Shown here piece by piece: positions 19,027 through 41,777 of a stretch of DNA of 64,000 nucleotides; the stretch's first letter is position 1, and each line of letters opens with the position of its first letter. The notes beneath the pieces were generated by a model. The model had not been told where the DNA came from. It searched no databases and saw nothing but the letters and a program-made list of their open reading frames with translations. The position numbers were made by a program, and so were the translations under genes. This DNA comes from Sediminibacterium ginsengisoli (lineage in GTDB: Bacteria > Bacteroidota > Bacteroidia > Chitinophagales > Chitinophagaceae): contig CAMDLR010000002.1 in assembly GCA_945901845.1 (NCBI GenBank), positions 62,001-126,000 of the forward strand, read 5' to 3'.

Positions 19027-19050
19027 TGTTTACTATTTTAGTTGTTGTTC

Positions 19051-19881
19051 TTATTGTTTAGTTACAGTATAGGTTCCTGCTTGGAAATCAACTGAAATTT
19101 TATAATTACCCGCAACAGCTGGACCATCAAATCCTGGATCCGCATCTTTCTTTTCTAAAGTACCTGCAAACGCATCGCCAACTACTTTTTTGTACTGTGT
19201 GCCCCAAACGCCGTTTTCTTGGATCATCTTGTAATTTCCACCACCTACAAAAGCAACAACGCCTTCATATAGTGTTTCAGTTACTTTAGCCAAACGCTGT
19301 GAAGTAACAAATGGAGAACCAAGTGGATTAGACCAGCCAGATGCAAAAGCATTACCAGTTACCCATAATGTTCCTGCAGTTGGTACTGGAACTTTTGGTG
19401 GTGGTGCATATGGTAGTACTCTAAATGCTAATACATTTGAAATTAACTCAGTTACAGATGCGCCTAAAGTAGCGATAATACGTACTTCAAGTCTTGCAAC
19501 TCTTCCTGGCTTCACATTCAAATCAGAAATAGCAATATTAAATGCCTTTTGCGTATAGGATACAGATAAGTCTTTGCTAATAGATATCGACTTTTTCTTA
19601 GCCCCTTTAAAATTAGCACCAGCGGTGTCAATTTCTAAAGTGTAATTAACGTTTTGAGAACTTCCACCAGAAGCAAATTTATAATTAGGGTTGGTCCAAT
19701 TAAAGGTTACACCTAAATTATCTTCTGTTAAAAAGTTTAGTGCAATGCTATCTTTCGAAGTAGCCGAAAGCACAGGAGCCGTACCGTTGATATACGTATC
19801 TTTTGCCTCGTCTTTTTCACAAGCAGCAAAGAATACGATCGCAAGGCTCACGTAAACTAGTGATTGAATTATTTTTTTCAT
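19051..19881 (-). CDS. SusE domain-containing lipoprotein
   Basis: ORF 19051-19908; ATG 19881 gives MKKIIQSLVYVSLAIVFFAACEKD lipobox; SusE-type Ig domain followed by LWVTGNAFASGWSNPLG. Confidence 0.8.
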   Translation of the reverse strand: MKKIIQSLVYVSLAIVFFAACEKDEAKDTYINGTAPVLSATSKDSIALNFLTEDNLGVTFNWTNPNYKFASGGSSQNVNYTLEIDTAGANFKGAKKKSISISKDLSVSYTQKAFNIAISDLNVKPGRVARLEVRIIATLGASVTELISNVLAFRVLPYAPPPKVPVPTAGTLWVTGNAFASGWSNPLGSPFVTSQRLAKVTETLYEGVVAFVGGGNYKMIQENGVWGTQYKKVVGDAFAGTLEKKDADPGFDGPAVAGNYKISVDFQAGTYTVTKQ

Positions 19882-19910
19882 ACAATTTATTTTAAATGTT
19901 TCAGACAAGA

Positions 19911-21488
19911 TTAATAACCTGCGTTTTGAACTAGATTAGGATTAGATGAAATGTCTGCAGAAGGTAGCGGATACAATCTTCTAAATGCATCTACATTGGT
20001 TCCACCTCTTACACCACCTTTCCATGGCCATAGATAAGTTGATTCTACAAATCTATTGTAACGGATAAGGTCTGTTCTTCTAAATCCTTCCCAATATAAT
20101 TCTCTTGCACGCTCATCTAAAATAAAATCTACATTTAATTGAGATGAAGTAATGGCGCTTGCTCCTGCTCTTGTTCTCAAAGCGTTTACATAGGTTAATG
20201 CTGTAGCAGCATCACCAGTTCCACCTCTTAAAACAGCTTCGGCATATACCAAGTTCATTTCTGCAGAACGGAAAATTGGGAAATCGATATCAACCCAAGT
20301 TAAATTTTTACCTGGGGTACCATTCATATTGATGTTTCTAAATTTAGTGATCGCATAGCCATCTGTAAATTTAGTTAAGTCACCAATATCTGCAGATTGA
20401 CCAGCGGTATAAAACTGTGAACGCTTGTCGGCAGTACCTGTTAAGTCAGGAAACTTACTTGATAAGCCAGTAGTTGTTCTTAAGCCACCCCATCCACCAT
20501 CAACACCAAATTGAGCAGCAACCATGCTACCACCAACAGGTGCGTGTGTTAAGAATGTAGTACCACCCCAGTTTTGTGTTTTTAAACCATCATAGTTAAT
20601 GGTTAAAATAAATTCAGAAGTATTTACATTGTTATCTGCACGCATTATTTTAGTGTAGTCGCTAATTAATGAGTAACCAGCGTCTAATACTCTTTTCGCG
20701 TAAGTAGCAGCATCTGTATTTCTAGCAGTTCCTGTGTATACTTGTGCATTTAAATATAAACGAGCAAGGAGCGCCCATGCTGCAGCTTTATCTGCACGTC
20801 CATATTCATTTTTACGCGCATCTACTAAACTAGCGTCGATAGCCTTAAGTTCTGTTTCGATATAAGAAAATATTTCTCCGCGCGTTCTTTGCTTTGGCAT
20901 TACAGAGCCTAACGCTTCTGCTTCCGTTACAAAAGGAATGTTACCAAACAAATCCATTAAAATAGAATATTGGTAAGCACGCAAAAATCTTGCTTCTGCT
21001 CTGTATTTTTTAATCGCTTCAGCATCCACACCCGTAATTCCTTTAGACGCAACAGTTGCATCAGCAGATTGACGAATGAAATCGTTTGCTAAAGTAATTT
21101 GATAGTAACAACGGTAGTAAAGACCTGTAAGCATTGGATTGCTTGCAGACCAATTCATGTTGTGGAAGTCTTGAATACCTGGATCTCCCCAAGAAACAAC
21201 AGCTTCGTCAGTACTTAATTCTTGTGCTTTCCACCATAGGCGTAAGAAATCAGAAGTACCTTCATCGATACCTTGAATATCTCCGTTACCTGCAGGTCCA
21301 GCATTACCTGTTAAAGCATAGCTCGCATATACTTTTGCAAAAGCTTGCTTATAACCATTTGCGTCGGCGTATACGGTTGCTGATGTAACATCATTGGTAG
21401 GCAACAAGTCTAAGGTCTTGTTACAAGATGCCAATACAACAATCGCTCCAACTGTGGTTATGATTTGTTTGTATAGATTATTTTTCAT
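19911..21488 (-). CDS. RagB/SusD family nutrient uptake outer-membrane protein
   Basis: SusD-like lipoprotein, C-terminal LDERARELYWEGFRRTDLIRYNRF...LYPLPSADISSNPNLVQNAGY. Confidence 0.93.
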   Translation of the reverse strand: MKNNLYKQIITTVGAIVVLASCNKTLDLLPTNDVTSATVYADANGYKQAFAKVYASYALTGNAGPAGNGDIQGIDEGTSDFLRLWWKAQELSTDEAVVSWGDPGIQDFHNMNWSASNPMLTGLYYRCYYQITLANDFIRQSADATVASKGITGVDAEAIKKYRAEARFLRAYQYSILMDLFGNIPFVTEAEALGSVMPKQRTRGEIFSYIETELKAIDASLVDARKNEYGRADKAAAWALLARLYLNAQVYTGTARNTDAATYAKRVLDAGYSLISDYTKIMRADNNVNTSEFILTINYDGLKTQNWGGTTFLTHAPVGGSMVAAQFGVDGGWGGLRTTTGLSSKFPDLTGTADKRSQFYTAGQSADIGDLTKFTDGYAITKFRNINMNGTPGKNLTWVDIDFPIFRSAEMNLVYAEAVLRGGTGDAATALTYVNALRTRAGASAITSSQLNVDFILDERARELYWEGFRRTDLIRYNRFVESTYLWPWKGGVRGGTNVDAFRRLYPLPSADISSNPNLVQNAGY

Positions 21489-21517
21489 TGTTATATTTTT
21501 TTGTACAATTGATTGAA

Positions 21518-24505: not shown

Positions 24506-24533
24506 AGAATTACAATTTCAATTTGAATAAATA

Positions 24534-27395
24534 CTAATTAGTGATTAAAAATGTTTGTGTTTTTTGTTTTTGATTTGATTGAATAGATATGTGATAAACG
24601 CCCGGAGGGAGTCCTTTCTTATTGATAATGAGTTGTTGCTGTCCTTTATATTGCCATCCATTAAATATTCCGTCTACTACAACGCCGGTCTGACTTAAAA
24701 GTTTAACTTGAACCTTTCCTGATTCAGGCAATTGATACTTAACAATCGCTGCTTGCGATAACGGATTAGGGGATACACTTATTGTTGTATTTAATATGGG
24801 TAAGCTGATATTTGGTGTAGAAGTAACTACCGCATTGTTGAGGTTTTTATTTGAATACACAAAGTACTCGCCTGGCTGTAAGGATACACTTGCAGACCCA
24901 CCAGAAACCAGCTGATACTTGTTAGAATATAAACTATACCAAAAACCATCTGTTGGAAAACTAACGGTAGCTGTTTGCGGCGTAACATCAAAATTACCAA
25001 CAACTACTAATTTGATAGAATCGCCATTAAGTTGCATTGACTTAATAGAACCTGAAGTATTCACAGTGTACTTATTAGATCCAAAATCGTTTGTATAAGC
25101 AGGGGTTGCGCGTAGTTTTAAAAATTTAGCATAGGCATCATACAAAGCTTTACGATTGGCATCTTGTAGATAATCCCATTTAATAGGCTTTTCTGCAAGG
25201 CGGCAATTGTTGGCATCCACCGTTAAGTTGGTACAAGTATTGATACTAAAATCATATCCAAGTTCACCAAACTGCCACATTAGTTTAGGCCCCGGTGTAA
25301 GTGCCCAAAAAGCAGCCGCCATTTCATTTCTTTTTAAACCGGTTGCCGGATTTTTTGTGCTATAACTACCAGAAACGTTACCGAAATTTACATTTTTATA
25401 TTGAATCCTTTCCTCATCATGACTTTCCATATAGGTAACCAAATGCTGCTGTGCAAAATTTCGCGCATTCGAAAAACTAGTTCCAAAATTTGAGGTAGAT
25501 GTATAACCCATGGTTGCTTCTGCAAAACTATAATTAGCATTACCCCATAATAGCATACCATAGTCTGCTAATTCTTTTTCTTCCGAATTATCGGCAAAAT
25601 GCTCCAGCATACAATAGCTACCGGCACTGGCCAGCTGCATGGTATCGTAAATCGCTTTCCATATTTTGATACGGGAAGCGTCATAATTACCCCATGCGCC
25701 AACATTGGTTGGATTGTTCACCTGCGTAAATCCTTTTGACAAATCCCATCTGTAACCATCTATGTGAAATTCTTGAAGCCAATATTTAGTAACCCTATTT
25801 ACAAGCTCTTTGGTTGCTAATGATTCATGGTTAAAATCGTTACCCACATTAAAAGGATGTTTGGCATCTGGGTTTAACCAAGGATTGTTTGCAGCAGGTT
25901 TGTTATTTGTACCATCCCAATACATTTTAGCAAGTGGCGAAGAACCAAATACATGGTTGAGCACCATATCCATAATTACAGCAATACCTTGTTGGTGAGC
26001 GGCATCAATAAACGATTTGATGGCCTCGGGTGTACCATAGTATTTATCGGTCGCAAAAAAGAAATTAGGATTGTATCCCCAACTACTATTGCCTTCAAAT
26101 TCAGAAAATGGCATTAACTCTATAGCATTGATGCCTAATTTTTTTAAATACGGCAAGGTGTCTTTCAGTGTTTTAAAATCATGCGTGGCCACAAAGTCAC
26201 GGAGCAAAAGCTCATACACTACAAGATTCTTTTTGTTGGGACGTACAAAGTTTGCATCGTTCCATGTATATTTTGCCTGTGCAGTTTGCAAGACACCCAC
26301 AATTTCGGTGGTTTTACCTGTTGGGTAAGGTTTCAAGTTTGGAAAGGTAGACGCAGCAATAAATGGATCATTCCAAGGATCCAATACTTTGGTTGCATTA
26401 TAATCTGCTACTTTTAAAGCACCGTCAATAATGTACTGATACGCATATTCTACACCAGGCGTTAAGCCTGTTAATCGAACCCAAAAACGCAAACTATCAG
26501 GCGTCATTTTCATGACATGCGAAAGTCCAGGGGTCCAATTATTAAAATCACCAGCTACGGTGATAGAGGATTTTTTAGGCGCAAACAAAACTAGCGTTAC
26601 TGAAGTATCACCTGGTTCGTAATTAATGCCATCTTTAACGCCAGCAGGTAAGCCAACTAAACTTGTTGAACCTGTTACCAAAAATGAAATAGAATCTTTA
26701 CGTGTTACAGAACCACTCACACCTTGCAACATAATTTTTTGAGTGCCTACTTTTTGTACAATAAATTTTTGTGCAATGCTCGTTCCAGTTGTTGTAGCAA
26801 TGAGTGAATCATTAACAAAAAGTGACAAAGCAGCTGAACTACTTGCAGCACCTGCTATTGAAATGGTATCACCAACAGCCTTTGAAATAGGCTCCAATAC
26901 CGGCACATACAAAGGTTGTGTTAGAGGAGAATCGATACGAACAGCTAAATTATTTTCATACACCGGAATATACATATCGGAAGCATCTGCATTGCGCAGC
27001 ACTTGTGAACCGGTAGCATCTCTAAATAAAATAGCGATTTTTTGGATGGTTTCTGAGGCATTCGTCATACCAAAAAAATTACGAAGACCACCACTAATTG
27101 TAAACGACCAAACATTATTTGTAAGCTTGGTACATTTTACTTTATTATCTGCCACACCCCAAGCAACAGGAACATATCTCCAATTGCTACTTGATGTACT
27201 TAGTGAAGTGATGGCACCAATATGTACAAAAATATCACCGGTAAAATTTAAGATACCTTTATTTCCTTTTGTAGCATCCGCAAAAATAGTGATGGAAGAA
27301 CTTGTCTCTGTAGTAAACACAGGTGTTGTACGCAACAATTGTGCATGTGCCGACAAAGCAGCTAACAAACAGCATAGCAGTACAAAAATTCTCAT
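24534..27395 (-). CDS. GH13 alpha-amylase-family enzyme with N-terminal CBM/E-set modules and T9SS C-terminal sorting domain
   Basis: GH13 regions AVIMDMVLNHVFG, DGYRWDLSKGF, EHFADNSEE, YMESHDEER; T9SS type A-like tail (ISVSPNPLSQAAIVKYQLPESGKVQVKLLSQTG...GVYHISIQSNQKQKTQTFLITN). The ORF track starts at TTG 27401; ATG 27395 is preferred. Confidence 0.9.
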   Translation of the reverse strand: MRIFVLLCCLLAALSAHAQLLRTTPVFTTETSSSITIFADATKGNKGILNFTGDIFVHIGAITSLSTSSSNWRYVPVAWGVADNKVKCTKLTNNVWSFTISGGLRNFFGMTNASETIQKIAILFRDATGSQVLRNADASDMYIPVYENNLAVRIDSPLTQPLYVPVLEPISKAVGDTISIAGAASSSAALSLFVNDSLIATTTGTSIAQKFIVQKVGTQKIMLQGVSGSVTRKDSISFLVTGSTSLVGLPAGVKDGINYEPGDTSVTLVLFAPKKSSITVAGDFNNWTPGLSHVMKMTPDSLRFWVRLTGLTPGVEYAYQYIIDGALKVADYNATKVLDPWNDPFIAASTFPNLKPYPTGKTTEIVGVLQTAQAKYTWNDANFVRPNKKNLVVYELLLRDFVATHDFKTLKDTLPYLKKLGINAIELMPFSEFEGNSSWGYNPNFFFATDKYYGTPEAIKSFIDAAHQQGIAVIMDMVLNHVFGSSPLAKMYWDGTNNKPAANNPWLNPDAKHPFNVGNDFNHESLATKELVNRVTKYWLQEFHIDGYRWDLSKGFTQVNNPTNVGAWGNYDASRIKIWKAIYDTMQLASAGSYCMLEHFADNSEEKELADYGMLLWGNANYSFAEATMGYTSTSNFGTSFSNARNFAQQHLVTYMESHDEERIQYKNVNFGNVSGSYSTKNPATGLKRNEMAAAFWALTPGPKLMWQFGELGYDFSINTCTNLTVDANNCRLAEKPIKWDYLQDANRKALYDAYAKFLKLRATPAYTNDFGSNKYTVNTSGSIKSMQLNGDSIKLVVVGNFDVTPQTATVSFPTDGFWYSLYSNKYQLVSGGSASVSLQPGEYFVYSNKNLNNAVVTSTPNISLPILNTTISVSPNPLSQAAIVKYQLPESGKVQVKLLSQTGVVVDGIFNGWQYKGQQQLIINKKGLPPGVYHISIQSNQKQKTQTFLITN

Positions 27396-27408
27396 AAACA
27401 AGCGTTAG

Positions 27409-27621: not shown

Positions 27622-28431
27622 CTATTGAAATATTTTCAGCCAGTCTACCTTCAATTGTGCCGGAAAAATGGCATCGTCTATTCCAAACTTGCCGCCTAGA
27701 TTTCCGCCAACAGCAATATTTAAAATCAAATGAAAGCTTTGATCAAATGGCCAAGCACCTGAACCATTATGCTCGTTTTTGAAAGTGTTGTATAATTTGT
27801 TGTCAATGTAAAAATCAATTTTTTCGGGGGTCCACTCAATTTCATAATCATGAAACTGCGTTGATAAATTTGGAACAATTAATGATGCTGTCCGTTGTGT
27901 TCCTATCATACCATTGTACCGCTCTGTGTGCACACTACCAAATGCGGAGTCTGGCGCAAAACCAACTGCTTCTAAAATATCTACCTCGCCACTTTTAGGC
28001 CACTCACCATACACTTTATTGGTTGGCAAAATCCATCCAGCAGGCCACAACCCTTTACCAGTAGGTACTTGAGCCCTTATCACCATACGACCGTACTTCC
28101 AATCACCTTTGTTTTTTGTAACAAGTCTAGCAGAGGTATAATTCGAGCCTTCAAATTTTTCTTTGCGTGCTTCGATAATTAAATATCCATTTTCTACGCG
28201 CGCATTTTCTTTGCGTGCATTCGTATAATATTGAGCCTCATTATTTCCCCATCCACAAATTCTGGGACAACCTGTGCCAATATCATAATTCCATTTTGTA
28301 GAATCCGGCAAACCATTTACCAAAAAATTGTCTTGCCATACTAACTTGGTATATGTTCTTTTTTGCGCTTGAGTTGAAAAAGCAACAATCGCCAAAATTA
28401 AAATCAACCCTATATTTCGAAACGTACGCAT
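27622..28431 (-). CDS. GH16 family endo-beta-glucanase (laminarinase-like)
   Basis: KSGEVDILEAVG (ExDxxE-type), WNYDIGTGCPRICGWGNNEAQYYT, LNIAVGGNLGGKFG. Confidence 0.92.
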   Translation of the reverse strand: MRTFRNIGLILILAIVAFSTQAQKRTYTKLVWQDNFLVNGLPDSTKWNYDIGTGCPRICGWGNNEAQYYTNARKENARVENGYLIIEARKEKFEGSNYTSARLVTKNKGDWKYGRMVIRAQVPTGKGLWPAGWILPTNKVYGEWPKSGEVDILEAVGFAPDSAFGSVHTERYNGMIGTQRTASLIVPNLSTQFHDYEIEWTPEKIDFYIDNKLYNTFKNEHNGSGAWPFDQSFHLILNIAVGGNLGGKFGIDDAIFPAQLKVDWLKIFQ

Positions 28432-28451
28432 AAATTAATTGTATTAAAGTT

Positions 28452-29477
28452 CTACTGATACACCCGCACATAATCCACCTCGTAGGTGGTAGTGGTAAAG
28501 CCAGCATCGACAGGCCCTCCAAAGTTTCCACCCATGGCTAAATTTAAAAGCACAAAAAAGTTCTGATTAAAAGGCAAGGTATTGTTGTTGGCAAAAGAAT
28601 AAAAAAGGACGTCATCAATATAGAATTTGATAGAAACGGCGGTCCATTCACAAGTATACACATGAAATTCAGTGGTTGCGCCCGTAATAACTTTGGTTCC
28701 TCCTACTGCATTGCCACCAAAATTACCTGGATAATGCAGGGTTCCGTATATTTTATTGACGTCGCTTCCTTTGTGTTCCATGATATCAATTTCACCACAG
28801 TTTGGCCAGTTTACCGTATTAATATTAGCGCCTAACATCCATGCAGCGGGCCAGGTTCCAACACCAACTGGTAATTTTGCACGCACTTCAACTTTTCCGT
28901 ACTTAAATGAAAATTTATCTTTTGTTAGAAGCCTAGCAGAAGTGTAAGCACTTCCACTATAATTCTCTTTTTTAGCAATGATTTTTAAAGTGCCATTGGA
29001 TACAATGGCGTTATCGGTTCTGTTGGTATAATACTGTAACTCTGCATTACCCCATCCACCTGCACCAAGGTCATAATTCCATTTTGCAGGATTAGGAGCA
29101 CCTGGGGCATCAAATTCATCAGACCAAATTAATGACTGCGCCACTGTTACAGAAACATCAACTGATTTAGATATCGTTTGTCCCGCAGTACTTTTTGCAA
29201 TAACGTTGACTTTATAATTTCCGGATGCCGGATATTTATACATAACAGTGCCTGATGGAACCGTTTGAAAAATACCGTTTCCAAAATCATACTCATAGGT
29301 TGCTGCATTTGTAGCAGACGCTACAAAATTTACATTCCCACTATTGTCAGCATTAATAGTTGCCGTTACTGTTAAATTAGTAGGCGCAGGATTTACAACA
29401 GGTGTATCACCTTTTGAGCAGGACCCAAAAAATGATACACCTATTAATAAAATCCACAATAAAGAAGATAAACGCAC
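28452..29477 (-). CDS. PKD-domain + GH16 beta-glucanase lipoprotein
   Basis: Lipobox FFGSCSKG; PKD-like YEYDFGNGIFQTVPSGTVMYKYPASGNYKVNVIAKSTAG; GH16 NCGEIDIMEHKG; LNLAMGGNFGG. Confidence 0.92.
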   Translation of the reverse strand: MRLSSLLWILLIGVSFFGSCSKGDTPVVNPAPTNLTVTATINADNSGNVNFVASATNAATYEYDFGNGIFQTVPSGTVMYKYPASGNYKVNVIAKSTAGQTISKSVDVSVTVAQSLIWSDEFDAPGAPNPAKWNYDLGAGGWGNAELQYYTNRTDNAIVSNGTLKIIAKKENYSGSAYTSARLLTKDKFSFKYGKVEVRAKLPVGVGTWPAAWMLGANINTVNWPNCGEIDIMEHKGSDVNKIYGTLHYPGNFGGNAVGGTKVITGATTEFHVYTCEWTAVSIKFYIDDVLFYSFANNNTLPFNQNFFVLLNLAMGGNFGGPVDAGFTTTTYEVDYVRVYQ

Positions 29478-29486
29478 TTTAAAAAT

Positions 29487-30383
29487 TTATTTTGCTTTCA
29501 ACTTTTGATACCAAGAGTTACCATCGGCACCAATATTTCTTAAATGAATACTTGTAGCTGTTGCACCCAAAATTTCATACGTAGTACCGCCAGTTCCAAA
29601 GTTGATAATACCATTACCTGGAACCATAAATTGAATTCTAGTAGATACAGCAGGTGTAGAAGTAGAAGTAGCATCCATAAATGCTAATTTTTTAGTGCCT
29701 GTCGTAACAATGTTAAAACATGCATCACCACCGCTAAATCCATAAAATGCACTAGCAGCACCAATAGAAAATGACTGACCTTTATTATTGATTGTCATTG
29801 AAATATTGTTGAGCGCATCTTTAGAAAAAGTGATCTCGTCATCATAGGCACAAGCTTCTCTAGAATTAGGTGTTGCTGCATACCAAATAGGCCCAAAACC
29901 ATCAGCAGGTCCTACACCAAAATGACCAGGCGCTTCTTTATCTGTGATCCAAGTACGAGAACCTGTTCCAGTAAGTGCATCTAAAATTGCTTGCGGAATA
30001 GTAAAGGCAACAAATACGGTTACTTTTTTACTAATTACAGAAATAGCACCACCCGTACCAACGGCACGAACGGTAATGGTGTAGTCATTAACGCCTGGTG
30101 TTGGATACTTGTAAGTAATGGCACCAGAAGGAACCACTTGTGTTTTGCCGTCACCGAAATCAATATTGTACGTTAAAGCATCTGTTGCTTTTGTTGTAAT
30201 AGTAACAGTTCCTGTACCATTACCATTTGGATTTGCTACATCTTGGCCTGCTACTGCAGTAGTGAGTGTTAGGCCTGTTGGCGTTTTAACATTACCAAAA
30301 CTATATTCGGTTTTTTTACAAGAAATAAACCCAATGGTTGTGATAAACAAAACCGCAACAATATATTTTAAATTATTTTTCAT
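29487..30383 (-). CDS. PKD-domain surface lipoprotein (glycan-binding candidate)
   Basis: ORF 29487-30401; ATG 30383 gives a lipoprotein signal; PKD-like YNIDFGDGKTQVVPSGAITYKYPTPGVNDYTITVRAVG. Confidence 0.75.
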   Translation of the reverse strand: MKNNLKYIVAVLFITTIGFISCKKTEYSFGNVKTPTGLTLTTAVAGQDVANPNGNGTGTVTITTKATDALTYNIDFGDGKTQVVPSGAITYKYPTPGVNDYTITVRAVGTGGAISVISKKVTVFVAFTIPQAILDALTGTGSRTWITDKEAPGHFGVGPADGFGPIWYAATPNSREACAYDDEITFSKDALNNISMTINNKGQSFSIGAASAFYGFSGGDACFNIVTTGTKKLAFMDATSTSTPAVSTRIQFMVPGNGIINFGTGGTTYEILGATATSIHLRNIGADGNSWYQKLKAK

Positions 30384-30402
30384 AATTGTAGGTTTTATCA
30401 AA

Positions 30403-32481
30403 TTAATTTAAGGTGATATCATCAAATAAGAAAGTAAAGTTTGCAGAGCCATCACCAACTGTTCCTAAATCAAAAATCAAAACAATTTTTTGGTAGGTTC
30501 TAGCAGTATTGATAGCGCTATAGTCAAACGTTAATGTTTCCCAAGCACCGGCAACGGTAGTTGTTACTTCTTTCTCAAAACTAATGCCACCATCATTTTG
30601 GTTTTCAACTTTTAATAAAAGCTTAGCCCCCACTCTTGGAGAAAATACTTTTACTTTAAATGTTTTTGAAGTTGAGAAATCAATTGGAGCTGCTAAACCA
30701 ATCCAGCTTCCGCCCCAAATTTGACCTGCATTTTTAACCATCCTGCCCACTTTAGCACTTGTGTTACTACCGCCAGATTGAGGATTGTTAATAACTGTTG
30801 CAACACCACCATCAAAATCATTGAAAGTGTATGATAGTGAACTAGATTCAAATGTTAAAGGAAGACTTACCGTTTCTACAAAATTAGTTGCTAATTTTTT
30901 AACATCATCCCAATAAAAAACTTTACCGTTTCCGCTATTTCCAAAATCAAAGAATATTGACGCCATCGTAAAGGTATAGGTTGCATTAAATGCAGCAGTA
31001 CCAGGCGCTTGGTTGTTAAAATCAAAAATCAATGTTTCCCAAGCACCCGCAACAGTTGTTGTTGCAAATGTTTCTACAGAACGAGTAGGGTTGGTATGGT
31101 CTTCTACTTTTAATAAAACTTTAAGGCCCGCCGCTGGAGAATAAACGCGTACGCTCATTTGAGAAGCAGCAGCTGTTAAAGGAATGGCCGTTGCAAAACC
31201 AGTATTGGTTCCAATGGTCGTACCCGCCCAAGTTTCTGCACCATTAACTTTGGTTGTTTTTTTAACATTATTATTTGGATTGGTAGGATCTACCGCATCT
31301 ACTGTTTGGTTGTTACCAAAATCAGTTACCGTATAATTAACACCAGCCACATCAAATGTTACAGGTAAATCAATTCTAGAATTTGGCATTGCATCTGTAA
31401 GTCTAAAATCATCCATGTAAAAAGTGAAATTAGCAGAGCCATCACCAGGTGTGCCATTATCAAAAATTACAACGATGTTGTGGTACGCATTAGAGGTATT
31501 AATGGTTCTATAATCGAACGCTAAATCTTCCCATGCATTAGCAACTGTTGTTACTACTTCTTTTTCAAAAGCAATTGATCCGTTACCTGCATTTTCAACC
31601 TTGAGCAATACTTTAGCACCCACTCTTGGAGAAAATACTTTCATACGAAACACTTTATTGGCAGAAAAGTCGATAGGTCCACCAAGGCCAATCCAGCTTC
31701 CACCCCATGGATCACCTGCATTTTTTACCATTTTAGCCACTTTAGTAGATGCATTTGCAGCATTGCTATGTGGATTTGCAACAACTGTTACATTTCCACC
31801 ACTAAAATCATTCCAAGCATAATTGATTGAAGTAGACTCAAAAGTAATAGGTAATACAACAGGGTCTACAATCGTAATCACTTTTGTAAAAGTTGTTGTT
31901 GCAGCGCCACCACTTAATGCTACCACTCTAACCGTGTAAGCACCTGTTTTTGCATATACTTTAGAAATCGTTTGTCCTTCTAAAAAATTAGTTGGGACTT
32001 CATTCGCAACATCTCCAAAATAAACCTGAAAGAAAGTTTCATACAAAGCTTTTGCAGAAACATTTACTTTGTATTTATTAGCAGGATCAATAACTGCTGT
32101 TACCTCTAAATTTTCAGGGGCTTTAAAAGTTACGGTTAACTTTTGAGTTACAGTTGTAGAAACACCTGCAACGTTAGTGCCGGTAATTTTTACATCATAC
32201 ACGCCTTCTGGATATACTTTTGAAGTACTGCCACCAGGTAATACCTTAACGGGTCCAGCAGTTCCATGACCGTAAGCAATTTCAAAGCTCGCAACCCCTT
32301 CGCCGTTTGGTGTAATGGTTACAAGTCCTGTATTGTCTTGGGTGATGCTAAACATAGCGCCCAATTTTGCAGATGCTGCAGTCGTTTGAACGAAAGCTAC
32401 ATCATCATTGATTTCTTTTTTACATCCTGAGAATGTAGCAATGAGTATCAAGCAACTCAATAAATATTTTAATGTTTTCAT
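30403..32481 (-). CDS. Surface glycan-binding lipoprotein: two PKD-like domains + three tandem ~155-aa CBM-like domains
   Basis: Lipobox TFSGCKKE; three repeats beginning LPITFESTSINYAWNDF / LPVTFDVAGVNYTVTDF / LPLTFESSSLSYTFNDF. Confidence 0.8.
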   Translation of the reverse strand: MKTLKYLLSCLILIATFSGCKKEINDDVAFVQTTAASAKLGAMFSITQDNTGLVTITPNGEGVASFEIAYGHGTAGPVKVLPGGSTSKVYPEGVYDVKITGTNVAGVSTTVTQKLTVTFKAPENLEVTAVIDPANKYKVNVSAKALYETFFQVYFGDVANEVPTNFLEGQTISKVYAKTGAYTVRVVALSGGAATTTFTKVITIVDPVVLPITFESTSINYAWNDFSGGNVTVVANPHSNAANASTKVAKMVKNAGDPWGGSWIGLGGPIDFSANKVFRMKVFSPRVGAKVLLKVENAGNGSIAFEKEVVTTVANAWEDLAFDYRTINTSNAYHNIVVIFDNGTPGDGSANFTFYMDDFRLTDAMPNSRIDLPVTFDVAGVNYTVTDFGNNQTVDAVDPTNPNNNVKKTTKVNGAETWAGTTIGTNTGFATAIPLTAAASQMSVRVYSPAAGLKVLLKVEDHTNPTRSVETFATTTVAGAWETLIFDFNNQAPGTAAFNATYTFTMASIFFDFGNSGNGKVFYWDDVKKLATNFVETVSLPLTFESSSLSYTFNDFDGGVATVINNPQSGGSNTSAKVGRMVKNAGQIWGGSWIGLAAPIDFSTSKTFKVKVFSPRVGAKLLLKVENQNDGGISFEKEVTTTVAGAWETLTFDYSAINTARTYQKIVLIFDLGTVGDGSANFTFLFDDITLN

Positions 32482-32512
32482 ACTATTTAATTCAATAGAT
32501 TATACAATGAGG

Positions 32513-34024
32513 TTAATATCCAGCATTTTGGGTTAAACCAGAAATATCAACCTCTTGTTGAGGTATTGGGAACACTTCATGTTTATTAACTTTAAAGCCA
32601 GTAATTTTTGAAGCAGCAAGTCCAGTTCTAACAAGGTCAAAGAAACGATCTCCTTCCATTGCAAGTTCTAGTCGACGCTCATCCCAAATTGCTTGACGAA
32701 GTGCGGTTCCGGTTGCAGTAATATTATTAGAAGCATTACCAAATGCTCTTTGTCTTACTTGATTTAAATAACCTTGCGCTTTAGCATCATTAGGTGCAGT
32801 GGCTCTATTAAAGGCTTCTGCCGCCATTAATAAAACATCCGAGTAACGAATGATTCTGAAATTGTTGAGGTAGTTTAATTCTACTTGACCAGAAGTTTCT
32901 CCTTTACGTGGTAAATACTTTTGATTGTATAACCCGGTATTTTTAAATGGAGCCACTTGATAGGTAATATTAAGTGATGGATTTGCTGCTTTATAAGCTT
33001 CAATATCTAATACCGTTACGGTTTTACGCTTATCACCCGCAGCATAAGCAGCTGCTAAATTTTGCGTAGGTAAATTGGTACTCCAACCTGCCGCATAAGG
33101 CATTTGAGCAGAACCATTTAAGCCTCTAATACCACACTGTTGAATGGCATAGTTACCTTGGCCACGTGTTGCTCCACCCCAGTTATAGTATGGAGATACA
33201 TTAGAATATTGAATTTCAAAAACAGATTCAGATCCGTTTTCACCGCTTGCTAAATACATAGCACCAAAATCAGAAACGAGTGTAAATGCGTTTGCAGTGA
33301 TAACACTCTCTAACGCAGTTGCAGCTGCATCAAATTTATTTTGATAGAGGTATACTTTTCCAAGTAAGGCTTGTGCAGCGTACTTTGTAATTCTACCTTT
33401 TTGAACTTGAACTGCCGGAAGTGCTGTAACAGCAGCGGTTAAATCCGCTTCAATTTGCTTGTATACATCCGCTTTAGGAGAACGCTTTAAGCTTTTTGAT
33501 TGTGCAAGACTTAAACGCTTGTCTGTGAAAAGAGGTACATCACCAAACATACGTACAAGTGTAAAGTAGTAGTAGGCGCGTAAGAAATGAACTTCGCCAT
33601 ACAATGCTTCTTTACCAGCAAACTCAATTTTTTCACCCGCTAAATTAGCCGCTTTATTCTGCGTCATATAGTTGGCACGGTTAACACCTTCGTATGCAGA
33701 AACCCAGATTTCTTGTAGGGTTCCGTTTACAGGTGTGTGCGTATAATCGTCAATTTGTTGTAACGATAAAACGTCGGAAGCATTTTCTCCACCAGACACT
33801 GCATTATCAGATGCAATATCACCAATAGGCACTACTTGGTTAATCCATTGTAGTGGCGTGTATACGCTAACCAACATATTTCTGTAATCAGATGCTGACT
33901 TTAAATAGTCTTGCTCTGTGATCACAAAATCTTCGTGAGGATTGTAATCGACCCACTTTGTACAAGATATAAGCGTGGTAATAACTAAAACCAGGCCTAC
34001 TATTTTTATTGAATTGATCTTCAT
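32513..34024 (-). CDS. RagB/SusD family nutrient uptake outer-membrane protein
   Basis: SusD-like; C-terminal WDERRLELAMEGDRFFDLVRTG...HEVFPIPQQEVDISGLTQNAGY. Confidence 0.93.
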   Translation of the reverse strand: MKINSIKIVGLVLVITTLISCTKWVDYNPHEDFVITEQDYLKSASDYRNMLVSVYTPLQWINQVVPIGDIASDNAVSGGENASDVLSLQQIDDYTHTPVNGTLQEIWVSAYEGVNRANYMTQNKAANLAGEKIEFAGKEALYGEVHFLRAYYYFTLVRMFGDVPLFTDKRLSLAQSKSLKRSPKADVYKQIEADLTAAVTALPAVQVQKGRITKYAAQALLGKVYLYQNKFDAAATALESVITANAFTLVSDFGAMYLASGENGSESVFEIQYSNVSPYYNWGGATRGQGNYAIQQCGIRGLNGSAQMPYAAGWSTNLPTQNLAAAYAAGDKRKTVTVLDIEAYKAANPSLNITYQVAPFKNTGLYNQKYLPRKGETSGQVELNYLNNFRIIRYSDVLLMAAEAFNRATAPNDAKAQGYLNQVRQRAFGNASNNITATGTALRQAIWDERRLELAMEGDRFFDLVRTGLAASKITGFKVNKHEVFPIPQQEVDISGLTQNAGY

Positions 34025-34048: not shown

Positions 34049-37000
34049 TTATAGTTTAATATCAAAGCCAAATGCAAATGTTCTGGCTTGAGGATATGCA
34101 CCACGATCGATACCTGTATCTAAAATGCCACCCGCAATTTCTGGATCAAATCCAGTATATTTTGTAAATACAAAAGCATTTTTTACTTGTGCATATACGC
34201 GAATACTGTTGAACCACTTTTTAGAAGCTGGCGTATTAAAGGTGTAACCGAGTTGAATATTCTTAATTTTCAAGAAAGAACCATCTTCGACATATCTGTC
34301 TGATACTCTAATATTACTATTTGCATCCACAAAAGAATATCTTGGTAAGCGTGCATCGTTTGTTGTACCCTCACCAGTCCAACGACCTAGTACAGAACGG
34401 TCTTTATTAGAGAAGTTAGCATTACGCTCATATGCTCGATAAATATCGTTACCTACAGAAGCATATAAGAATGTATTGAAATCGAAATTCTTGTAGCTCA
34501 AATTAAAGCTCCAACCCATTGTAAACTTAGGGAATGGATTACCAATATTTGTTTGGTCTGATGCATTGATAACACCATCACCATTCATATCTACATACTT
34601 GATGTCACCAGGTTGCGCACCTGCTTGTTTAGGTGAAGCTGCAACGTCTGCGGCGTTTTGGAAAAGACCTGCTGTTTTGTAGCCATAAAAATAACCTGGT
34701 GCAAATCCTTTTTCAAATACAGTAACACTTTGTGATTGACCATTAAAGTAAAACCCACCTAAGATTTTAGCAGTACCATTATCGTTGGTTGCAGTTACTA
34801 AATTAGTTGCAGTTGTGAAAGTCAATGCTGTATTGAATTTCAAATTTTTACCAATAGATTCGTTGTAATTTAAAGTGAAGTCAAAACCACTTGTTTTAGT
34901 AGCACCAATATTTGCAATTGGACTAGGAACTGTTCCTAAATACAATGAAGCAGCTGGGGTAAATAATAAACCATCCACTGTTTTTTGGAAATAGTCAGCG
35001 TTTAAAGAAACCTTATTATTAAGCACAACTAAATCAAAACCAATGTTTGATTGAATTTGCTTTTCCCATCTCAACGTAGTATTTGCAGAAGAACCTACTG
35101 TAGAACCTGGATAGAAAACATCATTAAATGTATATCCATTACTATTTGCAGTAGATCCGTAGCTTGGTCCACCAGTAACAATGCTCACAAATTGTGGGTT
35201 AACATTTTCGTTACCAATACTACCATAACTACCTCTAATTTTTAGTTGATCTACCCAGTTTGCCTTAAAGAATTTTTCTTTAGAAACAACCCATCCAAGA
35301 GATCCAGAATAGAAGTTACCAAATTTATTATCTACACCAAATGCATATGACCCGTCTCTACGTGCACTAAATGAAGCTAAATATTTGTCTTGGTAATCGT
35401 AGTTGATACGAGAAAAATAAGAGAGGTTTCTTCTAAAATATTGATAGTAGTACCCAGCTAAAGCATTGGTATTAGTAGCGATATTATTCCCTGTGGCAGC
35501 CGTAAAGTCTGCAAATTCCCAACTATTAAATGGAACATCTTGACGAGTAGCACCAGCCGCATTACCACTCACTTTTGCTAAAGAAAAACCAAGCACGGTT
35601 TCAAAATTATGATCCTGCTTTAATTTAAAATTATAGTTTGCAAAAGACTCCCAAGTATAATTGAAGTTGCTCACTTTTTCGTGTGCAACACTATTAAATC
35701 TACCCACAACTGTTGAACCATCTGCGTTCATTGAATTGTCTACGTTTAATGGGCCGTAAAATACAAGCGGGTTAAAACTTTTAGCATTACCATCATATTT
35801 TGTATAACCAAAACGTGAAGACAATGTAAGGTTGTTTAAAACCTTGTATTGTAACTCAAATTTTCCGTAGATTTTAGACCCTACATTTGAATTATAGGTA
35901 TTCTCTAATTTTGTAAGTGGGTTAAAAATTTCAGACAATAATAAATTACTGAATCCATATTTACCCGCTGTGTTAGGCACATTATTTAATACGCTAACAG
36001 TTGGATCAAAATTAATCGCACTTCCAATAACACTATTAAATGAATTCTCTTGGATTCCTTTAGAGTTCAAAGTAACGCCTGTAGTATTTAATAAGAACTT
36101 TAGTTTCTTAGAAATATCAAAAGTTAGGTTGGCAGAAAAGTTGCCTCTATCAAAACGAGATTTATCATTTCCTCCTACAATACCACCTTGGGTTAAATAA
36201 CCCGCAGATAAAAAGTAGGTCATATTTTCACTACCGCCTTGAGCTGCAATCGTATGAGATTGCAAAGCAGCTCTTTTAAATATTTGGTCTTGCCAATTGG
36301 TACCTACACCTAATAAAGATAGGTTTGGAAACACAATAGGGCCACCTGCAGTAGTACTACCTTCATTAATCATGGCACCATACTCTGTTGCATTTAATAC
36401 ACCTAGGGTATTCATGACTTCTTGTACACCATAGTTACTATTAATAGTAATAGCTGCTTTTTGGTTTTTTCTACCGCCTTTGGTGGTAACCACAATGACA
36501 CCATTACCACCTTTAACTCCAAATATGGCCGTGGTAGCAGCATCTTTTAATACGTTAATTGACTCAATGTCTGCTGCGTTGATTGCATTAAGATCAGTGA
36601 GTGTTTGAGGCACACCATCAATAATTACAACTGGATCGGTACCAGAAAAAGAAGGAATACCTCTAATTAATACAGTTGGCTTAGAACCAGGTGATCCAGA
36701 TTGGATAACGTTAACACCAGACGCCTTACCCTGTAAAGCCTCTTCCGTTCTTACGGGTTTTAGTTTTTCAATATCACTTGACTTTACTGTTGAAATAGCA
36801 CCAGATATTTTGGTCACCTTTTGGGTACCATAACCTACTACTACTACATCACCAAGTGTGTTTGCAGGATTTTGCTCTAAAGAAACCGCAACTTCACCTG
36901 CTTTTACTACCGTAACCTTGGAAGTAATTAAGCCTGTGTAAGTAATTTCTAGAACAGAACCTACAGCTGTGTTAAGTGAAAACCGGCCATTGGCATCGGT

Positions 37001-37165
37001 GAGGGCAAGTGATTTGCCCTTAATAGAAACAGAAGCGCCTACTAGCAATTCGCCAGTATTTTTGTTTTTGACACTACCGGTAACGGCAATTGATTGAGCG
37101 TAAAGCGTTTGTACGCCGAGCCCGAGCATCAAAACAAGGCACATAAGAATAAATCTTATTTTCAT
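34049..37165 (-). CDS. SusC/RagA family TonB-linked outer-membrane protein
   Basis: CarboxypepD_reg-like domain, LGDVVVVGYGTQKVTKISGAIS, plug, barrel, GAYPQARTFAFGFDIKL terminus. Confidence 0.95.
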   Translation of the reverse strand: MKIRFILMCLVLMLGLGVQTLYAQSIAVTGSVKNKNTGELLVGASVSIKGKSLALTDANGRFSLNTAVGSVLEITYTGLITSKVTVVKAGEVAVSLEQNPANTLGDVVVVGYGTQKVTKISGAISTVKSSDIEKLKPVRTEEALQGKASGVNVIQSGSPGSKPTVLIRGIPSFSGTDPVVIIDGVPQTLTDLNAINAADIESINVLKDAATTAIFGVKGGNGVIVVTTKGGRKNQKAAITINSNYGVQEVMNTLGVLNATEYGAMINEGSTTAGGPIVFPNLSLLGVGTNWQDQIFKRAALQSHTIAAQGGSENMTYFLSAGYLTQGGIVGGNDKSRFDRGNFSANLTFDISKKLKFLLNTTGVTLNSKGIQENSFNSVIGSAINFDPTVSVLNNVPNTAGKYGFSNLLLSEIFNPLTKLENTYNSNVGSKIYGKFELQYKVLNNLTLSSRFGYTKYDGNAKSFNPLVFYGPLNVDNSMNADGSTVVGRFNSVAHEKVSNFNYTWESFANYNFKLKQDHNFETVLGFSLAKVSGNAAGATRQDVPFNSWEFADFTAATGNNIATNTNALAGYYYQYFRRNLSYFSRINYDYQDKYLASFSARRDGSYAFGVDNKFGNFYSGSLGWVVSKEKFFKANWVDQLKIRGSYGSIGNENVNPQFVSIVTGGPSYGSTANSNGYTFNDVFYPGSTVGSSANTTLRWEKQIQSNIGFDLVVLNNKVSLNADYFQKTVDGLLFTPAASLYLGTVPSPIANIGATKTSGFDFTLNYNESIGKNLKFNTALTFTTATNLVTATNDNGTAKILGGFYFNGQSQSVTVFEKGFAPGYFYGYKTAGLFQNAADVAASPKQAGAQPGDIKYVDMNGDGVINASDQTNIGNPFPKFTMGWSFNLSYKNFDFNTFLYASVGNDIYRAYERNANFSNKDRSVLGRWTGEGTTNDARLPRYSFVDANSNIRVSDRYVEDGSFLKIKNIQLGYTFNTPASKKWFNSIRVYAQVKNAFVFTKYTGFDPEIAGGILDTGIDRGAYPQARTFAFGFDIKL

Positions 37166-37204
37166 AATGCAATCGTTTATGTGAAAGAAAAAAATGAACT
37201 TTTG

Positions 37205-37236
37205 GCAAGGTAAAAGTAGTCACAGATACTACAAAA
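37205..37236 (-). promoter_or_regulatory. Candidate promoter of the beta-glucan PUL (susC)
   Basis: Minus strand: TTTTG (-33, 37232-37236), 19-bp spacer, TACCTTGC (-7-like, 37205-37212; imperfect TANNTTTG); the spacer largely consists of the inverted repeat GTAGT-N7-ACTAC (37216-37232). Confidence 0.5.
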
Positions 37237-37251
37237 TCTTTATTGTTTAAC

Positions 37252-37321
37252 ACTTCAATACTACATCACTATTTTTAACTAATTGATTATCAATAATATA
37301 AATTACTTCAATACTACATCA
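37252..37321. repeat. Direct repeats ACTTCAATACTACATCA x2 (candidate operator) in the susC/regulator intergenic region
   Basis: Exact 17-bp copies at 37252-37268 and 37305-37321 (53-bp offset); an 8-bp core ATACTACA recurs at 37226-37233. Confidence 0.8.
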
Positions 37322-37364
37322 ATGAAGATTTCATATATTTAAGTTTAAATAAAATCTTTGAGCA

Positions 37365-40247
37365 GTGAAAAAAATCCTCTTTTTACTCCTTCTTCCCATT
37401 TTTGTTAGTAGCCAAAACACTATTGGCCTTCCAGATATAATTAATTATTCTAAATTGTCATACAACGCAGGACTACAAAACTGGGATGTTAAACAAGATA
37501 AAAATGGAATTGTTCATTTTGCCAACAATGAAGGCTTATTAAGTTTTGATGGAAAAAATTGGAAACTATACCCATTACCCAATAAAACCATTGTTAGATC
37601 AGTAGCCATTGGAAGCGATAATAAGATATACGTGGGTGGGCAGGACGAACTTGGCTATTTTGCCCCAAATACGAACGGAAATCTAGCTTACTACTCACTA
37701 ACCGCATTAATTCCAGCTAAATACAGATCTTTTGAAGACGTTTGGGACATTGTTTCATTAGGATCGTCCCTATTTTTTAGATCTCCCAAGAAAATCTTTC
37801 AGTACAATAATGGTACGATTACAGTGTTTAAGGCCCCTTCCGAATGGGCCTATTTAACCAGCTGTAATGGCAAATTGTACGCACATGACTACCAAACGGG
37901 CCTTATGGTATTTGAAAATGAGGCTTGGCATGCTGTTGTGTCAAATTATAGTTTTTCAAAAACCGATCCTATCACAGGTATGATTCCTAAGGGAACAGGG
38001 GCCATCATTACCACTTTAAAAAGCGGAATTTTCTATTTTATTAATAATACCATTACACCAATTAAATCGGGAGCTGCCAATTTTATCCAAAATGAGCGGA
38101 TTTATAATGCGATTGCTATCAATCAAGAATGGATCGCAGTTGCTACAAGCAATAGTGGCGTATATATCATTAATGATAAGGCTGAAATCATTCAGAAGTT
38201 TTCAAGTACCGAAGGGCTTCAGAGCAATAATATTTTAAGCATCTTTTTAGACAACAAACAAAATTTATGGCTTGGGTTAAATAATGGACTGGATTTTATC
38301 GCCTACAACAGTGCCATTAAACATATTTCACCCAAATTGTTGGACGAATCAGGTTATACCGCTATGATTCAAAATCAACAACTCTATATAGGCACATCAA
38401 ATGGACTTTATACAATTGCTCTTCAACCCTTACATGATTTAAGTTTTAGTAAAGGTGATTTTTCGTTGGTACAAAATACAAGCGGACAATCATGGGGGCT
38501 TTCACTAATCAATAACAAATTACTGTTAGGCCATCACGAAGGTGCATTTTATGTAAATAATAATACAGCTACTTCCTTTTCGAGTAAACCAGGGTTTTGG
38601 AACTTTACACCAATTGGCAATATGTCGCCTGCAAGCATAGTTGTTGGTGGTACTTATAGAGGTCTCACCATTTTTGATGCAAAAGCCAATCAACTTTTTC
38701 AAACATTAGATATTCCAAACTTTATTGAATCCTCTAGGTATGTAACCATTGATGCTGAAGAAAATATTTGGGTGTCGCATCCTTACCATGGTGTATATAA
38801 AATTGAAAAAACGATTGACGGAAAATATACCACCAAACAATATCAGAAAAAAGAAGGACTACCCGCTTTATTAAACAACCACATCTATAAAATAAAAAAT
38901 AGAATTGTAGTTGGGACAGAAAACGGAGTATATGAATACAATTCCGAAAAAGACAGATTTGAAACCGCCTCTAGCTATACTTCACTTATAGGCAATCAAA
39001 GTATTCGCTATTTGAAAGAAGACAAAGAAGGTAATATTTGGTTTATTCATGAAAAAATATTGGGCGTTATTGACTATACTGGTAATCAACCACAAGTCAT
39101 TTATATCCCTGAACTGAACGCCAAAATGTTAAGTGGCTTTGAATATATATATGCAATAGATGGTAGCAATATTTTTTTAGGTGGCGAAAAAGGATTTTAT
39201 CATATCAATTATGAAAAATATAAAAAATTAGCACCCGTATTAAATGTTCAAATCAGATCAGTACATATTATTGATAACATAGACAGTACCTTATTTGGTG
39301 GTTACTTCAAAAATGTGAATGAAAACCAAGTGCAGGAAGCAAACAATATACCACAGGTTGCTTACCGTTTCAAAACCATGCACTTTGATTTTACGTCGGT
39401 TGCATTTGGCTTTCAAAACAACCTAGAATATAGTTACAGACTCAAAGGCTTTGAAAACAACTGGTCTGCATGGACAAAAAGAACAGAAAAAGAATATACT
39501 AATTTGGTACTAGGCAGTTATACGTTTGAAGTAAAAGTTAGAAATAACCTGGGTAATGAATCAGCTGTATCAAGCTTTCAATTTACTATAAATGCGCCAT
39601 GGTACCGAACACGATTCGCTTATCTCTTATATTTTATTGCCATTGGATTTGGCGTTTATAAGCTTCATATATACCAACGTAAAAAGTTTAAAGCGCAACA
39701 GCAAAAATATGAGCAAGAGCAACAGCGTTTAAGATATATCCACGAACTAGAAATCAATAAATCAGAAACCGATATCGTTACATTGCAAAATGAAAAGCTA
39801 GGAGTAGAAATTGAATATAAGAATTCTGAACTAGCTTCTTCTGCCATGCATATTGTAAAAAAAGGCGAACTGCTTACCAAGGTTAAAAGCGAACTAGGTA
39901 GTATCATAAAAAAAATCGACAATGAATACGCCATTACTGAATTAAAGAAAATGGTAAAGGCACTAAATGAAGATGAAAATTTAGACCAAGAATGGGAGTA
40001 CTTTACCAAACATTTTGACAAAGTGCATTCGGATTTTATTGTCAAACTCAAAGAAAAGCATAGCAATATTAGCAATAACGAATTAAAGCTATGCGCCTAT
40101 TTAAGAATGAATTTATCAACCAAAGAAATTGCTCAACTCATGAATATTTCTGTGCGGGGCGTAGAAATTAGTAGGTATCGACTTCGAAAAAAATTAAACC
40201 TAGCTACCGATATCAACTTATTCGATTACCTCATTAGTATTGGCTAA
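37365..40247 (+). CDS. Membrane-tethered one-component regulator: periplasmic two-component-type propeller + Y_Y_Y domain, TM, coiled coil, LuxR-type HTH
   Basis: Signal peptide, Reg_prop-like repeats (NLWLGLNNGLDFI, ENIWVSHPYHGVYKI, NIWFIHEKILGVI), Y_Y_Y (EYSYRLKGFENNWSAWTKRTEKEYTNLVLGSYTFEVKVRN), TM, C-terminal HTH (LSTKEIAQLMNISVRGVEISRYRLRKKL). GTG start. Confidence 0.88.
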   Translation: MKKILFLLLLPIFVSSQNTIGLPDIINYSKLSYNAGLQNWDVKQDKNGIVHFANNEGLLSFDGKNWKLYPLPNKTIVRSVAIGSDNKIYVGGQDELGYFAPNTNGNLAYYSLTALIPAKYRSFEDVWDIVSLGSSLFFRSPKKIFQYNNGTITVFKAPSEWAYLTSCNGKLYAHDYQTGLMVFENEAWHAVVSNYSFSKTDPITGMIPKGTGAIITTLKSGIFYFINNTITPIKSGAANFIQNERIYNAIAINQEWIAVATSNSGVYIINDKAEIIQKFSSTEGLQSNNILSIFLDNKQNLWLGLNNGLDFIAYNSAIKHISPKLLDESGYTAMIQNQQLYIGTSNGLYTIALQPLHDLSFSKGDFSLVQNTSGQSWGLSLINNKLLLGHHEGAFYVNNNTATSFSSKPGFWNFTPIGNMSPASIVVGGTYRGLTIFDAKANQLFQTLDIPNFIESSRYVTIDAEENIWVSHPYHGVYKIEKTIDGKYTTKQYQKKEGLPALLNNHIYKIKNRIVVGTENGVYEYNSEKDRFETASSYTSLIGNQSIRYLKEDKEGNIWFIHEKILGVIDYTGNQPQVIYIPELNAKMLSGFEYIYAIDGSNIFLGGEKGFYHINYEKYKKLAPVLNVQIRSVHIIDNIDSTLFGGYFKNVNENQVQEANNIPQVAYRFKTMHFDFTSVAFGFQNNLEYSYRLKGFENNWSAWTKRTEKEYTNLVLGSYTFEVKVRNNLGNESAVSSFQFTINAPWYRTRFAYLLYFIAIGFGVYKLHIYQRKKFKAQQQKYEQEQQRLRYIHELEINKSETDIVTLQNEKLGVEIEYKNSELASSAMHIVKKGELLTKVKSELGSIIKKIDNEYAITELKKMVKALNEDENLDQEWEYFTKHFDKVHSDFIVKLKEKHSNISNNELKLCAYLRMNLSTKEIAQLMNISVRGVEISRYRLRKKLNLATDINLFDYLISIG

Positions 40248-41777
40248 AATAGGTATTTCATTGGGCCATGCAATGGTTTTACCAGTTGATAACCACGAAG
40301 GCATAGAAGCGTTTCGTTCCTTTAATTTTTGTGTAAGTAAATGAGCGAGGGTTTTTGTTTTTGCAACTTCTAGGGCAGATAAGTCGTGTAGTTCCTCTAT
40401 GTCTTTTGAAAGATCATATAACTCCAGAATTTGCTGCTTATGAAAATAAATCAGTTTCCAATCTCCTTGCCTAATAGCTGATGCCCATGAAATTCCTTTT
40501 ACATTAACATTCGTCCAGTTGTTGGGATAATGCCACACAAGTGTCTTTTGTCCATCTATACTTTTTTGTTTCCCTTGTAAAACAGGTAAAAAATTGTTGC
40601 CATCTACTACTTGCTTAACTGTTTTTGGGAAAGCATTTGCCATTTGCAAGATGGTGGTAAAATAATCTTCCGAAACAATATATTGTTTAGATACAGAACC
40701 CGGTTTTATTTGAGGTCCAGCAGCAATCATAGGTACGCGAATACCTCCTTCATACAATGACCCCTTCCCTTGCTTGAGTGGCAGGTTTTGCGTATGCGGT
40801 TCACCAGATCTACTTCCCTTTAAACTAAGGCCACCATTGTCTGAAGTAAATAAAATATAGGTGTCCTTATCCAATCCATTTTTTTCTAAATAGTTCATCA
40901 TATCACCTAAACTTTTATCCATGCCTTCCACGAGTGCCGCATATTTAGCTTCTGTATCTGTAAGCCCTGCATCCATATATTTTTGATAAAAGCGAATATC
41001 TTTATCGTAAGGCACATGCACCGCGTAATGCGATAGATATAAAAAGAAAGGTTTATTGCTAACGCGCGCGTCAAGTGTATGAATAGTCTCTCTTGTTATG
41101 GCTTCCGTTAAATAAAGATCTTCGGGTATATATTTTTCAAGCCCTCTAACCGCCCAGCTTGTATCCTTATCGTTTTGACGATAATTTTTTGATGCTAAAA
41201 AGCTACCAGGATGACCCGCTGCACTTCCTCCAATGTTTACATCGAAACCCATATTAATAGGCGATGCGCCTGGCATACCCGAAGATGCAAAATGTGCTTT
41301 ACCTGCAAGTATGGTGTAATAACCTGCCTCCTTTAAAATTTGTGGTAAGGGGGTCGCCACTACCGTATGCTGAAGCGCGTTTGTATAATGGCGCTCCGGT
41401 GTAAGTCCGTTATAATTCCAAGTAGCGGGTTGTAATAAACTGTCTTTAAAATCGGTGGGTGTATTACTATTTACATTGGTCCAATTGGTAACACCATGTC
41501 TTGCAACATTCATACCCGTCATTAAACTTACCCTAGTAGGTGTACAAACTGCATTTGAATAGGCATTTGTGAGCATCATTCCCTTGGCTGCTAAGCGCTC
41601 CATATTAGGTGTATGATACGTGGCATTTAGTTTTGTTGGTTTATCCCAAAAAGGCAAGGAACAATCCTGCCAGCCCATGTCATCAACAAGAAATAAAATG
41701 ATATTGGGTTGTTTAACTTGTGCCCGTATTTGGAAGCACAAAAAAAATACAAACAAAAAAATCAATCCTTTTTTCAT
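40218..41777 (-). CDS. Arylsulfatase-family sulfatase
   Basis: NIILFLVDDMGWQD; formylglycine-type motif CTPTR (AVCTPTRVSLMTG); YILFTSDNGG. 3' end overlaps the convergent regulator by 30 bp. Confidence 0.92.
   Translation of the reverse strand: MKKGLIFLFVFFLCFQIRAQVKQPNIILFLVDDMGWQDCSLPFWDKPTKLNATYHTPNMERLAAKGMMLTNAYSNAVCTPTRVSLMTGMNVARHGVTNWTNVNSNTPTDFKDSLLQPATWNYNGLTPERHYTNALQHTVVATPLPQILKEAGYYTILAGKAHFASSGMPGASPINMGFDVNIGGSAAGHPGSFLASKNYRQNDKDTSWAVRGLEKYIPEDLYLTEAITRETIHTLDARVSNKPFFLYLSHYAVHVPYDKDIRFYQKYMDAGLTDTEAKYAALVEGMDKSLGDMMNYLEKNGLDKDTYILFTSDNGGLSLKGSRSGEPHTQNLPLKQGKGSLYEGGIRVPMIAAGPQIKPGSVSKQYIVSEDYFTTILQMANAFPKTVKQVVDGNNFLPVLQGKQKSIDGQKTLVWHYPNNWTNVNVKGISWASAIRQGDWKLIYFHKQQILELYDLSKDIEELHDLSALEVAKTKTLAHLLTQKLKERNASMPSWLSTGKTIAWPNEIPILANTNEVIE

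Follow-up and report, generated by a model that had tools for sequence, protein, structure and literature searches.

The hybrid two-component systems (HTCS) of Bacteroides PULs possess a Reg_prop/Y_Y_Y sensor region. MalT of E. coli, a cytoplasmic STAND ATPase, is an activator with a GerE-type HTH that acts on direct repeats and is aided by other DNA-binding proteins. For the SusR-like regulators of Bacteroides (SusR BT3705 and SusR2-4), direct repeats with a spacing of 67 or 77 bp have been predicted, a motif that was taken to reflect two monomers on one face of the DNA, separated by six or seven turns; HTCS motif sites are on average 21 bp apart (Ravcheev and Thiele, 2013, PMC3878776). Our search of the literature on the motif, on Y_Y_Y/LuxR PUL regulators and on Bacteroides IHF retrieved nothing closer than this study, and no binding site of such a type for Chitinophagaceae. 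Little is understood of PUL regulators that lack a kinase; the data presented here supply a defined predicted operator, a promoter geometry and a likely IHF bend.

The locus lies in a 64,000-nucleotide stretch of Sediminibacterium ginsengisoli DNA, the whole of which is called the window. Its presumed target operon comprises susC, encoding a SusC/RagA TonB-linked outer membrane protein (34049-37165, minus strand), and genes for SusD, two PKD proteins and two GH16 glycosidases (27622-34024, minus strand). Divergent from it is the gene for a sensor-regulator of 960 residues (37365-40247, plus strand), composed of a propeller of Reg_prop repeats, Y_Y_Y and a C-terminal GerE-type HTH with the helix NISVRGVEISRYRLRKK. 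The GerE assignment is marginal (24.1 bits against a Pfam cut-off of 23.5), and Pfam detected no histidine kinase, receiver or AraC HTH. The sole match of the HTH in a PDB search was 3clo (E = 0.004), and a weak NCBIfam match over the C-terminal part, BT3442_fam, was the only Bacteroides-named one. Strong homologues of the regulator are encoded in 47 of 147 genomes of Sediminibacterium and are widespread in Chitinophagaceae. They are usually divergent from susC; other divergent neighbors encode GH16-like enzymes, a PD40 propeller protein, a GH2-like enzyme and secreted repeat proteins. At its 3' end, the regulator gene overlaps a sulfatase gene (40218-41777, minus strand) tail to tail by 30 bp (40218-40247). 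A starch-type locus (17647-27401) encoding two SusE, SusD, SusC and an alpha-amylase with a T9SS tail follows immediately after the beta-glucan operon and is encoded in the same orientation; the 17-bp repeat described below does not occur in front of it, even with up to three mismatches allowed.

Two conserved boxes between susC and the regulator gene

The original prediction had pointed to a 17-mer, ACTTCAATACTACATCA, occurring exactly twice with an offset of 53 bp, and both positions were confirmed (37252-37268 and 37305-37321). When up to three mismatches were tolerated, the whole window held just these two sites, compared with 0.31 expected from shuffles, and an exact 17-bp repeat arose in none of 5000 dinucleotide shuffles of the 199-bp intergenic region, the longest being 15. 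Each copy is itself internally repeated as TACWTCA-N4-TACWTCA with a step of 11 bp, a doublet reading that needs one extra base at the left. Read in this way, the target-proximal box 1 is CACTTCA-ATAC-TACATCA (37251-37268, plus strand), with its half-sites CACTTCA (37251-37257) and TACATCA (37262-37268) 11 bp apart. The regulator-proximal box 2, TACTTCA-ATAC-TACATCA (37304-37321, plus strand), starts 53 bp from box 1 and consists of the half-sites TACTTCA (37304-37310) and TACATCA (37315-37321). The four half-sites of the two boxes are thus arranged in steps of 11, 42 and 11 bp.

Other elements of the proposed architecture fared less well. The core ATACTACA is indeed present a third time at 37226, but this copy alone is not significant, because the 8-mer occurs five times in the window, where 2.3 occurrences are expected. 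Nor did it prove to be a phased site: it corresponds to a weak half-site, TACTACA (37227-37233, plus strand), which is separated from box 1 by 24 bp, or some 2.3 turns, and is found at -24 with at most two mismatches in 22 of 73 loci. An inverted repeat, GTAGT-N7-ACTAC, exists at 37216-37232 as described, but is confined to the closest relatives; we rejected it as a LuxR-type site since its conservation ends there.

Comparison of the intergenic region across relatives, which had been suggested as a check, revealed both boxes at fixed spacing. Of 89 upstream regions, sampled so that near-duplicates by k-mer similarity were excluded while close relatives remain, 75 keep the two boxes, at a distance of 51-56 bp with a mean of 53.4 and an SD of 0.87 bp, whereas the distances from the boxes to the genes vary widely on both sides (SD 78 and 24 bp). 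Where the boxes are exactly 53 bp apart, as at 34 loci, box identity is 0.81-0.86 and that of the diverged spacer 0.46. Half-sites on the plus strand number 327, compared with 77 in shuffles. A two-box layout, predicted to occupy one helix face, recurs in dozens of related species.

Among distant homologues, spacings near 32, 42 and 53-55 bp are found, corresponding to about three, four and five turns with a step of about 10.6 bp: 42 bp in L176, 42-43 bp in L281, L285, L291 and L292, and 32-33 bp in L277, L314, L316 and L317. In L115, L116 and L217, the box 2 half-sites are 22 rather than 11 bp apart. The order-wide list also holds distances off the whole-turn series (38-41 and 57-60 bp), some of which come from overlapping registers of one box; whole-turn spacing therefore draws its support from individual examples. 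A box is present on the plus strand in 37 of 59 order-wide upstream regions and on the opposite strand in none of the 59. The remaining 22 homologues have no box within 350 bp upstream; the rule is therefore not universal, or their sites are located elsewhere. The opposite strand and shuffles served as controls here, a reversed pattern being uninformative because reversed TACATCA (ACTACAT) falls inside ACTACATCA.

Neighbors of the boxes and the recognition helix

Which genes stand beside such boxes? A 71-bp two-box pattern, devoid of protein information, was run against 349 family genomes and identified 40 places. Loci were retrieved around 30 of these, and a homologue of the regulator (P0001) was present in 24; four more places adjoin one by coordinates (G000, G502, G212:C181 and G367), so that at least 28 of the 40 lie beside a homologous regulator. 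Five further places, L213-L216 and L227, precede related genes for secreted proteins, presumably targets, but adjoin no regulator gene; their genomes encode a regulator homologue on another contig. In L231, the boxes precede a gene for a secreted T9SS protein, behind which stands a susC that shares 55-58% identity with that of the window, and in L187, where the regulator stands in tandem, they are still in front of susC. Throughout the rearranged loci inspected (L187, L192, L227 and L231), transcription of the target gene runs opposite to the direction of TACATCA. The remaining places comprise three low-complexity repeats in G304, a contig end (L206), G464:C117, a second place in G367 and one in G343. 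A two-box pattern of this kind offers a route to targets whose regulator is encoded elsewhere in the genome.

Several recurrent neighbors of the boxes belong to one family of secreted repeat proteins (L231:5222-7054, L227:928-2877, L192:1-1407, L213:1736-3070 and L123:2-2767), with a motif like VISLxSxAYTNVxGTDWxPxWGQ and in some cases a Por secretion tail. Their repeats matched no Pfam family; perhaps they constitute a beta-glucan-binding module. A degenerate box pair was also seen just past the 3' end of the regulator gene in G367 (L226:3707-3766).

Among order-wide homologues, the variable NN of the half-site TAC-NN-CA tracks residue X of the helix RGVE-X-SRYRLR. Isoleucine goes with TACATCA, alanine or glycine mostly with TACGACA or TACGGCA, and valine or threonine mostly with TACTACA. 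Isoleucine and AT agree in 29 of 34 loci, a level reached by none of 20000 label permutations, which ignore kinship; the loci are related and hence not independent. In a tree of the C-terminal region, changes map to several separate branches, such as L319 (Thr) next to L264 (Ile) and L276 (Val) next to L320. Exceptions are L273, L293, L296 and L301. Within Chitinophagaceae, the helix IKS(A/V)ELSRYR goes with CACATCA half-sites (L151/L060 and L267), and Pedobacter homologues with the helix TIKAVEVGRYRLRKK, which do not adjoin susC, lack the boxes. Upstream of a paralogue with the helix RGVETSRYR (L266, G210:C1), GTGAAGT-type words recur at steps of about 22 bp but are oppositely oriented; they may be an inverted form of the TACNNCA tandem arrangement.

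Because the half-site letters covary with the recognition-helix residue, the regulator itself is the predicted binder, and we regard this covariation as the best evidence pointing to it. It amounts to a putative one-residue specificity rule, setting one amino acid against two base pairs. From a broader perspective, we see about an even chance that GerE-type sensor-regulators across the order share a common grammar: TACNNCA in tandem at 11 bp, two boxes whole turns apart, often around an IHF bend, and an NN largely set by one helix residue (AT for Ile, GA or GG for Ala/Gly, TA for Val/Thr). If so, PUL regulons would be predictable from protein sequence.

Promoter geometry, mechanism and rival explanations

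The conserved -7-like element of the susC promoter (TANNTTTR) is TACTTTTA in the window (37211-37218, minus strand); 53 of 75 loci have an element of this form at a distance of exactly 40 bp from box 1. The original prediction had paired a TTTTG -33 with TACCTTGC as -7; the conservation comparison replaces the latter by TACTTTTA and revealed no good or conserved -33 in front of it. The regulator promoter has a conserved -7-like element of its own, which in the window is TATATTTA (37334-37341, plus strand); in 47 of 75 loci, such an element is placed 29-30 bp from where box 2 starts. With a -7 element taken to extend from about -11 to -4, box 1 would fall at about -44 to -61 relative to susC. 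Box 2 would then cover the -33 region of the regulator promoter, a position that fits repression as well as activation.

Between the boxes, the minus strand carries a perfect match to the IHF consensus WATCARNNNNTTR, namely AATCAATTAGTTA at 37276-37288. Such a match is present on this strand of the spacer in 32 of 75 loci and missing from 43; shuffles give 0.6, the other strand two and the flanks zero to one. In 31 loci it occupies one of two neighboring offsets, +25 or +26 from box 1, and 17 different N4 sequences are represented among the matches. Because the match sits at a fixed place in the spacer, and because the genome encodes two PF00216 proteins, this part of the family, the window included, is likely to have an IHF/HU-type bend between the two boxes.

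How might these elements act together? We envision that the regulator senses a ligand in the periplasm, probably a beta-1,3-glucan oligosaccharide given its GH16 and GH17-like neighbors. Each box (TACWTCA-N4-TACWTCA) would most likely accept two HTH domains in head-to-tail arrangement on a single face of the helix, and the two boxes, five turns apart with the putative IHF/HU-type bend between them, might gather up to four. The ligand-bound regulator would then activate, rather than repress, susC from a promoter with a good -7 and without a good -33, box 1 being situated some 44-61 bp upstream of the start, which is predicted at about 37203-37208. It probably also controls its own gene, because box 2 overlaps the -33 region of that promoter.

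Judged from the DNA and protein sequences, the repeats are very probably the operator of the divergent sensor-regulator. The one-face operator for a LuxR-HTH protein serving susC that had initially been proposed is well supported by conservation, co-occurrence, targets without an adjacent regulator, near-whole-turn spacings and helix covariation. Places found by the DNA pattern alone mostly adjoin a single regulator family, half-site letters covary with the recognition helix of that family, and Pedobacter homologues with a different helix are devoid of boxes. It is therefore improbable that the boxes bind another factor, such as an HTCS or a global regulator, and merely adjoin the regulator gene, even though Reg_prop/Y_Y_Y proteins are often part of HTCS, for which direct repeats are known too. 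A chance repeat or a functionless scar of local duplication would be in keeping with AT-rich intergenic DNA and with the exactness of the copies, but is ruled out by the absence of such a repeat from shuffles and by boxes and a spacing that are fixed across many species while the spacer has diverged.

Alternatively, the main role of the boxes might be autoregulation or repression of the regulator gene, with control of susC secondary or absent. In favor of this, box 2 lies across the -33 region of the regulator promoter at a fixed distance, TACATCA is oriented towards the regulator gene, and half-sites are kept where the regulator diverges from other genes. We nevertheless consider this unlikely, because boxes precede susC or secreted-protein genes that lack an adjacent regulator (L213-L216, L227 and L231), and because in L187 they precede susC in the same orientation to the target despite the tandem regulator. 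The repeats and short inverted repeats of the intergenic region might also suggest an element that works as RNA, for example a leader attenuator. For either gene, however, the two boxes are situated upstream of the conserved -7 element and should not be transcribed from it, which makes a role as RNA highly improbable.

Relation to known regulators

If the boxes are indeed the operator of the sensor-regulator, then its parts resemble those of several known systems. With HTCS it shares the Reg_prop/Y_Y_Y sensor region and a direct-repeat motif, but it has no kinase, receiver or AraC HTH, and its boxes are farther apart than the 21 bp of HTCS sites. Like MalT, it combines a GerE-type HTH with direct repeats as predicted binding sites, but it displays no STAND ATPase features, and its sensor is a propeller with Y_Y_Y. 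Its C-terminal GerE HTH, marginal as the match is, resembles that of NarL/LuxR-type proteins, yet the half-sites are direct and the inverted-repeat site of that type was not found.

The SusR-like regulators appear closest. As with these, the regulator gene adjoins a susC/susD polysaccharide locus, and two direct-repeat sites are separated by a long, unconserved spacer near whole turns (53.4 +/- 0.87 bp; identity 0.46). Differences are evident as well: instead of 67 or 77 bp, the distance is 51-56 bp in Chitinophagaceae and four or three turns in distant relatives; the sites are tandem doublets with an 11-bp step, often with an IHF-type site between them; and the HTH matches, marginally, GerE. 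By its layout and its locus context, we regard the predicted operator as a variant of the SusR-like two-site operator.
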